Assembly (NCBI RefSeq): GCF_002239585.1
Contig: NZ_NDFH01000003.1
Span: forward strand, 806,001 to 870,000
Length of the DNA: 64,000 nucleotides
From: Psychromonas sp. CD1
GTDB lineage: Bacteria; Pseudomonadota; Gammaproteobacteria; Enterobacterales; Psychromonadaceae
Reading direction: 5' to 3'
Shown: in pieces, positions 59,109 to 63,374 of the stretch
How the letters are laid out: each line of letters opens with the position of its first letter
How positions within the stretch are numbered: position 1 is the first letter of the stretch
Made by a program: the position numbers and the translations under genes
Notes under the pieces: model-generated
Databases searched by the model: none
Told to the model about the DNA's origin: nothing
Seen by the model: the letters and a program-made list of their open reading frames with translations, nothing else

Positions 59109-59849
59109 ATGTATAATACAGACAATATTTATAGCAAAGCAGTGAAGAATATCAGCGGATTCACCTTTGATGAGCAAGTTGCACAAGTTTTCCCCGATAT
59201 GATCAAGCGCTCTGTACCCGGATATGAAAAAATTATTCAAACGATAGCAATGATAACTAAACGTTGTGCGCTCAATAATAGTAACCTTTATGATTTAGGT
59301 TGTTCTCTTGGCGCAGCCACTCTTTCTATGCGAAGTGCATTAAAAGAAACAACAGGTTGTCAAATTATTGCAGTTGATAATTCTACCGCGATGGTCAAAC
59401 GTTGTGGTGAAACCATTGAAGCTTATCGCTCAGAGATCCCAGTACAAATTATAAATGATGATATCTGTAATATTCAAATTGAAAATGCATCTGTGGTTGT
59501 CTTAAATTTCACCTTACAATTTTTATCCACTGACAAACGTTTAGAATTACTAAGTAATATTTATCAAGGTCTACTACCAGGTGGCGTTCTGGTTCTTTCA
59601 GAAAAATTCATCTTTAAGGATGATGTCACCCACCAGCTATTAATCGATTTACACTTGGATTTTAAACGTCAGCACGGTTATAGTGATCTTGAAATTAGCC
59701 AAAAACGCTCATCACTAGAAAACGTTTTAATAGCAGAAACAGTTACAGAACACTGTCAACGTTTACAAAAGGCAGGTTTTAAACATAATAACTTATGGTT
59801 TCAATGTTTTAACTTCGGATCCATTATTAGTATAAAAGAAAAAATATGA
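59109..59849 (+). CDS. cmoA: Carboxy-S-adenosyl-L-methionine synthase CmoA
   Basis: Makes carboxy-SAM from SAM and prephenate for wobble-uridine modification. The frame opens at 59079, but ATG-59109 follows GAGATGAG and gives 246 residues (E. coli 247). It has [22 protein letters not shown], the SAM loop [15 protein letters not shown], and [10 protein letters not shown]. It overlaps cmoB by four bases (ATGA). Confidence 0.96.
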
Positions 59850-60832
59850 TTGATTTCACACCTTTTTATAGTTGCATTGCCAAAAATCGCTTAAGCCACT
59901 GGTTGCGCACTCTGCCCTCTCAATTACATGAATGGGAAAATACACATGTCAATAAAAAACTCGCAGGTTGGATACGTGTTTTAAATAGATTACCCAAAAT
60001 TCACACTGAACATATTGAGCTAAAAAAGCAGATCAAAATAGGCAAAGCCAATCTCCTTAGTCCTGGTGAATGTAAGAAAATCGAAAATCTTCTACAAAAA
60101 TTTCATCCTTGGCGCAAAGGCCCTTTTGATATTCATGGTATCCATATTGATACAGAGTGGCGCAGTGATTGGAAATGGGATCGAGTATTACCCCATATAA
60201 GCTCATTAAAATATCGTTATGTATTAGATGTCGGGTGCGGAAGTGGTTATCACATGTGGCGGATGCGCGGGGCTGGCGCTAAATTTGTGGTTGGCATTGA
60301 TCCCAGCGATCTTTTTTTATGTCAATTTGAAGCCATTAGACATTTTGCAAATAATGATCAACAAGTACATTTATTACCTTTAGGCATTCAACAGTTACCT
60401 AAATTAGAAGCCTTTGATAGTGTTTTTTCAATGGGCGTTTTATATCATCGAAAATCACCAATAGATCATATCATACAACTACAAGATCAACTCGTTGCAG
60501 GTGGTGAGCTTATCCTTGAAACCTTAGTGATTGTAGGCACCAAAAATGATGTGTTAGTACCTGAAGATAGATATGCCAAAATGCGTAATATCTGGTTTAT
60601 ACCTAGTGCACTCGCATTAAAATTATGGGTGGAAAAATGTGGATTTGAAAATGTAAGAATCGTCGATATAAATGATACTTTAACCGGAGAGCAACGTAGT
60701 ACAGCATGGATGACCAATGAATCACTCGCAGATTATTTAGATCCTAATGATCCAACTAAAACAATTGAAGGACATCCAGCTCCTAAAAGAGCCCTTTTAA
60801 TTGCGACAAAATCCATTAAACCTTTAAATTAA
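59846..60832 (+). CDS. cmoB: tRNA U34 carboxymethyltransferase CmoB
   Basis: Uses carboxy-SAM to turn ho5U34 into cmo5U34 in tRNAs. The 328 residues (E. coli 323) hold [25 protein letters not shown], the nucleotide loop [20 protein letters not shown] and [12 protein letters not shown]. It is translationally coupled to cmoA. Confidence 0.97.
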
Positions 60833-60862
60833 AAAAAGGCTTCTATAATACGAAGCCTATTT
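60831..60862 (+). terminator. Terminator of cmoB
   Basis: Stem AGGCTTC/GAAGCCT with an 8-base loop, preceded by A residues. Last clearly native feature before the chimeric block. Confidence 0.8.
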
Positions 60863-61868
60863 ATCCGCCTACACAGAGCGAAACTTCTCTGCTAAGCTTA
60901 GTTTGCGGGATCTGGTAGAGGCAGTGCCAGCTTGCATGCCTGCAGGTCGACGATTCACAAAAAAATGCTCTGTTGCCGTTCTCTGCTTCTATTTCATCTA
61001 AGCATGTGAATACTATGCCGTGCCTTTCAGCATAACCCTTAGCATCTCCGCCCGTATCGGCTGGATCGAATGAAGAAATCTTTGCACCTCTTGGCTCAAT
61101 ACCAAGTTTAATATGTGCATCAATACACGCATCGAACCATTCCGCAATTATTACGCTTGACTCAACATCGTCTATGAAGTCACCAAGCCAGATATGGTTA
61201 AACCTAGCTTTGCTCATGCGTTTGCTTTCCATCTTTTCTTTGTCCTTTTTATACTCACCTAGCAATGATTCATCATGTTCAAACCAAGGGTTATCTTGAA
61301 AGCCCACTTTGATAATTAAATGATAATCATCTTCATAGTATCCATCCCGATCTATTTCAGCTTGAAAGGGTATTATAAACTCTTGGCTCATTGCATCAGA
61401 TGACGATTCATTATTCCAAAGATACCAAAGTTCAGCGCCGGGCGTGTCTCGTAATGTAGGCCCCAAAGTATCTATTGTTGATTGTTTAGTTCGAGCGGCT
61501 TCTTCCATCAGAAAAAACTTGTAATTGCTCGCACCTTTCATATCTATAATGTTCCCCATTCCGCCAAAGGTGAACACTCCGCCAGTCTTGTGACGTATCT
61601 CCCAATGTGATGGAACCGGTAAGAACCCTTTCAAGCTCAAGTCTTTAATTGACTTGTTTATCCCTGCATATATGGACTCTTTAAGCGACTTCATTCTTTC
61701 TCGTAACACGTAAACTTTAGAGCCACAGGAATTGATCTCACCCGACATTATGTCTTGCGCAAACCTTGACTTTGTACCAGCTCTCCCACCGAACATGCAC
61801 TTATATTTTTTGTGCTTTAGTATCATCGGCTCAAGTTTTTCAATCAAATAAAATAGTGGGCTCTTCAT
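60861..61868 (-). CDS. Phage terminase large subunit fragment, 3' end replaced by vector polylinker
   Basis: Would be the ATPase/nuclease that packages phage DNA. From ATG-61868 (MKSPLFYLIEKL..), the ATPase loop CMFGGRAGTKSR lies near residue 30, Walker B is FFLMEEAA near 120, and FDPADTGGDAKG near 270 is the first nuclease Asp region. At about residue 305 the phage sequence stops; the last 25-30 codons read through SalI, PstI and SphI polylinker sites and unrelated sequence. The real protein should be about 100 or more residues longer. Richer in G+C than neighbours by eye. No portal or capsid gene follows. Confidence 0.8.
   Translation of the reverse strand: MKSPLFYLIEKLEPMILKHKKYKCMFGGRAGTKSRFAQDIMSGEINSCGSKVYVLRERMKSLKESIYAGINKSIKDLSLKGFLPVPSHWEIRHKTGGVFTFGGMGNIIDMKGASNYKFFLMEEAARTKQSTIDTLGPTLRDTPGAELWYLWNNESSSDAMSQEFIIPFQAEIDRDGYYEDDYHLIIKVGFQDNPWFEHDESLLGEYKKDKEKMESKRMSKARFNHIWLGDFIDDVESSVIIAEWFDACIDAHIKLGIEPRGAKISSFDPADTGGDAKGYAERHGIVFTCLDEIEAENGNRAFFCESSTCRHASWHCLYQIPQTKLSREVSLCVGG
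60922..60951. other. Cloning-vector polylinker (pUC/M13 type)
   Basis: CAGTGCCAGCTTGCATGCC followed directly by CTGCAG (60940-60945) and GTCGAC (60946-60951) is the HindIII-SphI-PstI-SalI part of the pUC18/19-type multiple cloning site with one base missing at HindIII. Such an ordered run is not natural sequence; the stretch on its left may be poor-quality read start. Confidence 0.93.
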
Positions 61869-61882
61869 CAGTAGCAATCATG

Positions 61883-62032
61883 TTACCGATAGTTCCTTTC
61901 CATTTTTCTTAATAAAGTGCGGTACTTTTTCACCATCACTATGTCACCTCTATCACACGCCGTAAATGCTAGGCTCAGGCCTTTCTGAAGCTGCTTTTGC
62001 ATCCGCTCACTCCTAGCTAATTCTTTAGCCAT
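61883..62032 (-). CDS. Small phage-type protein upstream of terminase
   Basis: A 49-residue basic, helical product (MAKELARSERMQKQLQKGLS..) ending 14 bases before the terminase ATG. No recognised family and no good ribosome binding site. It could be a truncated small-terminase-region gene or a chance frame. Confidence 0.4.
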   Translation of the reverse strand: MAKELARSERMQKQLQKGLSLAFTACDRGDIVMVKKYRTLLRKMERNYR

Positions 62033-62117
62033 GCGCTAAGCCAATTCGAACACCGTAAACGCGAATTAGTTGCTATTATGCTACAACACGCCAACAAAAT
62101 GGTAACATTGAACGATA

Positions 62118-63374
62118 ATGAGACAAATAATGATTTACAAAAAACGATTAAATAAAATATTAATTGCCTTAAGTATTACCCTTAGTGCATCACAAGTCAG
62201 TGCTGCAGGTTTTCAACTCAATGCACAATCGGCCACGGGTTTAGGCCGTGCTTTCGCCGGAGATGCTGTTATTGCCGATAATGCTTCCGTTGCATCACGT
62301 AATGCAGCCGCCATGGCTCTCTTTGATAGCACAGCCCTATCAATGGGCGTTAATGTAATACAAACTGATATTAATGTCAGTAATGGAAAATATAGTCCTT
62401 TTGGAGAACCTGGAATCGATTCAAATTATGACAACGCCGGTGACATCTCTATTGCGCCAAATTTCCATTTGATAGTGCCCCTCAATGATAAATTTGCATT
62501 AGGTATGAGTTTATACTCTAATTTTGCCACACGAAGCGAATTTGATAGCTCTTTTAAGGGGACCGAATATGGCGGATTAACCGATGTTAAAAGCATCAAT
62601 TTAGCCTTATTAGCGTCATATCGCATCAACTCTCAATGGAGTATTGGAGGCGGGCTAGATATTATTTATGGAATGGGTAAGTTACAAAGAAATTTTAGCG
62701 ATTCTTATAGGCCACTTTTATCGGGTAAAAGAATATTAGATGCAGATACAGCAGGAATTGGCCTTGGCTTTAACGTTGGCACCGTATTTGAACTCGATAA
62801 AAATAATCGGTTTGGTTTGTCGTACCATTACAGCCCTCGACTACACACCAAAGGTGATGTTTTTTTCCTAGAAGATAAGAGAAATGCAAATGCAATTGAT
62901 GATACCTTATATCTATCACTCCCTGACATGGCGGAATTTTCAGGTTATCATCGCCTACAAGGTTCTAAATTTGCCGTCCATTATAGCGTACAATGGATAG
63001 GCTGGTCTTCTTTTGAATCTTTAGACTCAGCAGCTCATGGCACTCTAAAAGAATACAATTGGAAAGATACTTATCATGTCGCCCTCGGCACCACTTACTA
63101 TTTAAATAAAGATTGGACACTACGTGCAGGTTATATGCATGATTTAAGTGCACAAGATAAAGTAACGTCTATTTCAGTACCAGACTCAAATCGTCAATGG
63201 TTTTCAGCTGGCTTTACTTACCAACTAAATGAAAATAGTAATATTGATTTCGGCACGACTTATTTATTGGGTCAAGACGTAGAAGTAACCGAGCACTTAG
63301 GCCCATCTAAAATCAGTGCAACAACACATGCAGATGCAATTTTAATGGCAATGCAATACAGCTATGTTTTTTAA
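62118..63374 (+). CDS. FadL/OmpP1-family outer-membrane transporter
   Basis: Outer-membrane beta-barrel for long-chain fatty acids or other hydrophobic compounds. The 418 residues start with a signal peptide ending VSA, followed by AGFQLNAQSATGLGRAFAGDA, the N-terminal plug of FadL proteins, then alternating beta strands to a terminal aromatic (YSYVF). Starts at 62118 and 62130 are both possible; neither has a strong ribosome binding site. The upstream region is contaminated by the chimeric block, so its promoter cannot be judged. Confidence 0.92.
   Translation: MRQIMIYKKRLNKILIALSITLSASQVSAAGFQLNAQSATGLGRAFAGDAVIADNASVASRNAAAMALFDSTALSMGVNVIQTDINVSNGKYSPFGEPGIDSNYDNAGDISIAPNFHLIVPLNDKFALGMSLYSNFATRSEFDSSFKGTEYGGLTDVKSINLALLASYRINSQWSIGGGLDIIYGMGKLQRNFSDSYRPLLSGKRILDADTAGIGLGFNVGTVFELDKNNRFGLSYHYSPRLHTKGDVFFLEDKRNANAIDDTLYLSLPDMAEFSGYHRLQGSKFAVHYSVQWIGWSSFESLDSAAHGTLKEYNWKDTYHVALGTTYYLNKDWTLRAGYMHDLSAQDKVTSISVPDSNRQWFSAGFTYQLNENSNIDFGTTYLLGQDVEVTEHLGPSKISATTHADAILMAMQYSYVF

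Follow-up and report, generated by a model that had tools for sequence, protein, structure and literature searches.

Untrimmed cloning-vector and phage terminase sequence between cmoB and fadL in a Psychromonas genome, a laboratory artefact ascribed to manual gap closure

Features of the cmoB–fadL locus

The genome analyzed comprises 1,688,234 bases in three contigs, and the window, by which we mean the whole stretch of 64,000 nucleotides under analysis, corresponds to C3:806001-870000. Within it, the genes cmoB and fadL flank an insert containing a vector arm, a PCR primer and a fragment of a phage terminase gene. Homology at the DNA level to G010, the nearest relative with a complete genome (3,052,410 bases), stops at 60857 and is back from 62112, just ahead of the fadL start at 62118, bearing out an earlier interpretation, hereafter the sequence-only reading, that native sequence resumes around fadL. 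The parts of the stretch are as follows.

59846..60832, plus strand: cmoB, native left flank (NCBIfam NF011650, 491.6 bits, cut-off 209; homology to G010 on to 60857).
60863..60921, no strand: 59 bases of noise, read as a low-quality Sanger start (vector-arm score at shuffle level; no plasmid match).
60922..60955, minus strand: vector arm with T-vector cloning site (AATCGTCGACCTGCAGGCATGCAAGC-TGGCACTG; 34/35 columns against both L004 and GQ149348).
60956..60975, plus strand: PCR primer CACAAAAAAATGCTCTGTTG (exact second copy at C3:1238077-1238096).
60966..62054, minus strand: terminase large-subunit fragment with the C-terminal part missing and the N-terminal part garbled, overlapping the primer 3' end (phage match and profiles).
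62055..62111, no strand: junction zone of 57 bases, either read tail or native (last phage-matching base 62054; G010 homology from 62112).
62118..63374, plus strand: fadL, native right flank (relatives in 20 of 24 genus genomes, own included; NF007988, 302.8 bits, under its cut-off of 585).

Vector arm and adjoining primer

The polylinker 23-mer AGCTTGCATGCCTGCAGGTCGAC occupies 60929-60951 and is not there by chance, the mean number of matches over 100 shuffles being 0.00. When 60922-60955 was aligned with L004, a complete vector arm located elsewhere in this genome, the two agreed in 34 of 35 columns, with one T missing from AAGCTT. This confirms the pUC-order polylinker with small base losses that had been recognized at 60922-60951, and the pUC order runs up to lacZ. 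The right border of the pMD18-T cloning site, whose layout we take to be TCTAGAGAT(T) / (A)ATCGTCGAC, is present in the window, and both borders are present at L004, L005 and L006. The vector name is presumably pMD18-T, as given in the available text of PMC5893861, and the arm itself was compared with GQ149348, which carries the same arm.

Three records, GQ149348.1 (L089), GQ149343.1 and GQ149346.1, are listed as E. coli plasmids from giant panda and contain cloning-vector sequence, the first with the same AATCGTCGACC arm as the window; they may be clones recorded as plasmids.

The segment at 60863-60921, upstream of the arm, scored 15.0 against the vector arm versus a shuffle mean of 15.6, with 307 of 500 shuffles as good. 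It matched no plasmid record at the settings used and, among the compared loci, only itself and 13 bases in L083/L076 at E 0.35, as expected of a noisy Sanger read start.

Directly after the vector lies the 20-mer CACAAAAAAATGCTCTGTTG (60956-60975). Terminase sequence had been placed immediately after the SalI site; it is indeed present, but the T-vector cloning site and this 20-mer, a PCR primer, intervene. With up to three mismatches allowed, its only other match in the genome is exact, at C3:1238077-1238096, 371 kb away and near selA; sequence identity around that copy ends, rightward, at base 20. This putatively native copy is flanked by nusG/secE (named by eye) on one side and by selA (TIGR00474), into which it points, on the other; it is situated 137 bases beyond the stretch aligned to G010. 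Since within the window the primer matches only itself at the same tolerance, it does not originate from the cmoB or fadL end, which indicates that the clone was made for another gap.

The phage terminase fragment

A minus-strand terminase large subunit was identified by Pfam Terminase_3 (E 6.5e-25, 88.3 bits versus a cut-off of 23.2) and phrog_3717 (E 3.3e-21), both matches falling on an open reading frame at 60861-61877 that reads through into the vector. The comparison with phage databases that the sequence-only reading had proposed yielded terminase relatives, of which the best named one is the terminase of Vibrio phage 1.090.B (MG592465; 70.3% DNA identity over 72% of the query). Relatives with 66-78% protein identity are encoded by 27 of the 30 candidate viral stretches. 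The gene is a fragment; it lacks its 3' end, as had been noted, with approximately 200 C-terminal codons absent relative to the phage locus L024.

The same reading recognized no phage gene other than the terminase and a tiny upstream frame. No further phage gene was found, but the upstream frame is not a separate gene: it is best read as the probable N-terminal end of the same terminase, its frame broken by read errors, because a second copy (L002), clean in this part, carries it in a single frame that starts at a GTG equivalent to approximately window position 62053. Where the primer 3' end is presumed to anneal, L024 has TCTGTTG and the Vibrio phage TGCTCT.TT; a seed of this kind, 7-10 bases long, would explain mispriming on the phage terminase.

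Copies of the phage sequence in the assembly

Among 41 genomes searched, only the genome itself contains the terminase sequence, and the 40 relatives gave no match. Further pieces lie at C3:667682-668454 (L002) and C3:1353048-1353264 (L003), giving three sites with the window. Aligned with L002, the window shows no difference in the 300 columns over positions 61550-61849, and agreement declines at the edges to 33 of 50 columns at 61300-61349 and 35 of 51 at 62000-62049 through lost bases, added bases and miscalls. This decay, which runs in opposite directions in the two copies, is the pattern of two overlapping raw reads. L002 and L003 are 99.4% identical over 327 bases, and from these alignments the three phage pieces are probably raw reads of a single product. 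L002 and L003 lack the vector arm and both primers, and the clone reading of these two accordingly draws on the common phage sequence and the error pattern.

The occurrence of phage sequence at three assembly places is compatible with a resident mobile element. One alternative weighed is that a genuine phage remnant or degraded prophage occupies the cmoB–fadL interval, the polylinker alone being artefactual. Against it, the three pieces overlap in one stretch of 1.1-1.5 kb with ends formed by read errors, the 40 relatives lack the sequence, and in the window the vector and primer adjoin phage DNA directly. Moreover, the portal gene of the relative phage was not found in the genome (a search without a positive control), and the terminase stands alone between cmoB and fadL rather than within several phage genes in a row. 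A remnant is thus very improbable, and the earlier advice against claiming a prophage here stands. The phage DNA is bounded by a vector arm on one side and a decaying read on the other.

Other clone-bearing sites

Six sites in the assembly carry such material, with vector at four and phage sequence at three, the window belonging to both sets. A pUC19 polylinker query matched nine places, eight of them at the four vector sites; the ninth, a 14-base match at E 1.96, was taken as chance. With a vector-bearing record as query, nine places at the same four sites were recovered, the longest being 372 bases at 97%; on this basis, the vector sites on C3 are at 214.5-216.0, 444.6-445.7, 866.9 (the window) and 1179.4-1180.5 kb.

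Inserts at the three other vector sites start at TCTAGAGAT(T) or GTCGACGAT(T) with the primer TAATATTAAATATATTGAGCCTGC. A further copy of this primer, free of vector and putatively native, lies at C3:7110, upstream of aspA. These inserts are read as off-target products of one gap-closing primer. An identical 603-base unit of primer, rmuC insert and primer occurs at two sites. For the sbcC insert, identity to Enterobacter hormaechei reaches 97.9% across 68% of the query, and for a third insert (L006:995-1420) the best plasmid matches reach 75.8-79.1%.

Two other sources for this material were rejected. The 27-mer at these inserts is not a shotgun-library adaptor, given its vector-free copy upstream of aspA and the gap-closing PCR named in the available text of PMC5893861. 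Host DNA from E. coli is likewise out as insert source, with 80.6% identity for sbcC and 82.7% for rmuC to the best E. coli matches.

The arrangement differs between sites. L006:945-2522 (C3 approximately 214.5-216.0 kb) consists of two tandem clone reads with vector stretches, a G+C-rich insert and the rmuC insert also found at C3:1179 kb. At L005:1487-2640 (C3 approximately 444.6-445.7 kb), a clone read with the Enterobacter-like sbcC insert cuts the gene after a ribose transporter permease, a few codons past a possible start.

Vector stretches of this length, up to 372 bases at 97%, at three sites besides the window could also be explained if the organism or a clone had been engineered and the vector were truly chromosomal. 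However, the vector pieces at the four sites are incomplete, noisy and short of some bases, PCR primers flank the inserts, and the genome fits an amphipod-gut metagenome bin as described in the part of PMC5893861 that was available. Engineering is consequently the least credible of the explanations considered, even less probable than a phage remnant.

Flank spacing and unsupported joins

The distance from the end of cmoB (2222709) to the start of fadL (2231040) in G010 is 8.3 kb; it is 12.1 kb in G023, 12.1 kb in G022 and 15.1 kb in G015. cmoB was searched in six genomes, and distances were taken from the four with both genes ordered on one contig, leaving out G002 (cmoB and fadL on different contigs) and G005 (no fadL match). 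The flanks of L002 are 13.1 kb apart in G010 and those of L003 2.65 kb apart, so that the genes flanking the three phage-bearing joins are separated in G010 by 2.7-13.1 kb.

When the cmoB–fadL interval of G010 was compared with the present genome, an ABC transporter was recovered at C3:416053-417924, with ordinary genes around it, together with matches of 117 and 37 bases to the same query stretch. The NUDIX, acyltransferase and alkyl-sulfatase genes of the interval were not found by DNA search of the genome, a search that diverged copies could escape. These data bear on the possibility that the insert is an artefact but cmoB and fadL are nevertheless true neighbors, the interval having been lost by genome reduction with nothing hidden. 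The displaced ABC transporter implies that the interval was at least partly rearranged, and the available text of PMC5893861 reports the genome as reduced. Yet the only sequence at the join is an off-target clone, which leaves the adjacency unsupported, and the same source describes contigs ordered by alignment to other Psychromonas genomes. We regard true adjacency as possible but doubtful; the preferred reading is that the gap between cmoB and fadL was bridged falsely.

Loss of torCAD at the cmoB–fadL gap was considered and rejected. All open reading frames in the intervals of G010, G015, G022 and G023 are at most 720 aa and none is tor-like by eye; TorA is presumably longer than 720 aa. The published torCAD deletion therefore seems unconnected with this site.

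A further join, within L003 (C3 1351548-1354764), bears a piece of selC (tRNA-Sec) at L003:1218-1391 (C3 approximately 1352.8-1352.9 kb). It ends inside the tRNA gene where the phage sequence starts. The distance from here to selA is 115 kb; the selC of G010 sits immediately upstream of its selA. ARAGORN detected tRNA-Sec in G010 and none in L003 or L107, and none of the five tRNAs of the window is tRNA-Sec. Rfam at gathering thresholds returned nothing for L001 and L003, despite the selC piece in the latter. In addition, G010 has mnmE between the two genes that flank the L003 join, but in the present assembly no mnmE stands next to yidC there. Formate hydrogenlyase would be expected to need selC. 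This enzyme is stressed for Psychromonas sp. CDP1 in the available text of PMC5893861.

Origin of the insert

The cmoB–fadL insert is a laboratory artefact of manual gap closure without biological feature. At a probability of roughly 0.97, window positions 60863 to approximately 62054 represent a single unprocessed Sanger read from a T-vector clone, inserted manually to join the cmoB and fadL contigs of the metagenome-derived CDP1 genome. The vector, the primer copy, the phage identity, the error pattern, the recurrence at other sites and the wrong flank spacing are observed directly, and the clone read was presumably pasted into the contig by hand.

According to the available text of PMC5893861, CDP1 comes from the gut of a hadal amphipod and has 1,688,241 bp in three contigs. 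The genome analyzed here fits CDP1 in size (a 7-base difference), contig number and method. As further described there, the 11 contigs obtained on reassembly were oriented through alignment with other Psychromonas genomes; gaps were amplified from metagenomic amphipod DNA, products were cloned with the pMD18-T kit and Sanger sequenced, and the resulting reads were "manually linked" to the draft, which closed eight gaps after 11 libraries. This published method fits a gap-closing PCR clone. The six sites, three of which were checked against a relative, probably represent six of the eight published closures.

Mechanistically, the Sanger read would have been placed to close the cmoB–fadL gap, with a clone insert that is most probably an off-target product of a gap-closing primer whose own site lies near selA. 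The last 7-10 bases of that primer probably annealed to a phage terminase gene present in the template, which is the likely source of the phage DNA in the clone. The noisy read start, vector, primer and decaying read end were all left untrimmed. The earlier proposal that a clone read entered the contig without trimming is borne out by the vector, the primer and the decaying phage match, with the refinement that the clone derives from gap-closing PCR, not from a shotgun library, and that its phage part is an off-target PCR product. The cmoB–fadL gap in the assembly remains unclosed.

Implications for the published genome

This artefact matters as a correction to a published genome. In the available text of PMC5893861, CDP1 is presented as near-complete (99.3%) and as a case of genome reduction; the listed completeness of the genome analyzed is 79.9%. 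In annotation, the foreign sbcC, rmuC and terminase genes could be mistaken for genes of this organism. The hidden intervals seen each measure kilobases and, for that reason, cannot alone overturn a genome of half the usual size. Our literature search found no published correction of the CDP1 genome. More speculatively, the off-target product might sample a genuine phage, as yet undescribed, that is related to Vibrio phage 1.090.B, inhabits the hadal amphipod gut and perhaps infects the dominant Psychromonas, and the false closures might hide some of the genes considered lost; we advance this only tentatively.

Comparison with known systems

The window fragment shares the Terminase_3 family with Vibrio phage 1.090.B (MG592465) and its IMG/VR relatives. 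In contrast to the 554-aa frame of L024, it is truncated at the C-terminus as described above and garbled in its 5' part, and, unlike the terminases of the phage relatives, it has no adjoining phage gene. With pUC-type T-vectors (pMD18-T), the window shares the polylinker, the lacZ-side arm and the AATCGTCGACC cloning border at the 34 matching columns of 35. What sets it apart from usual vector contamination is that off-target PCR produced the insert and that the read spans a gap, where such reads would otherwise lie at a contig end.
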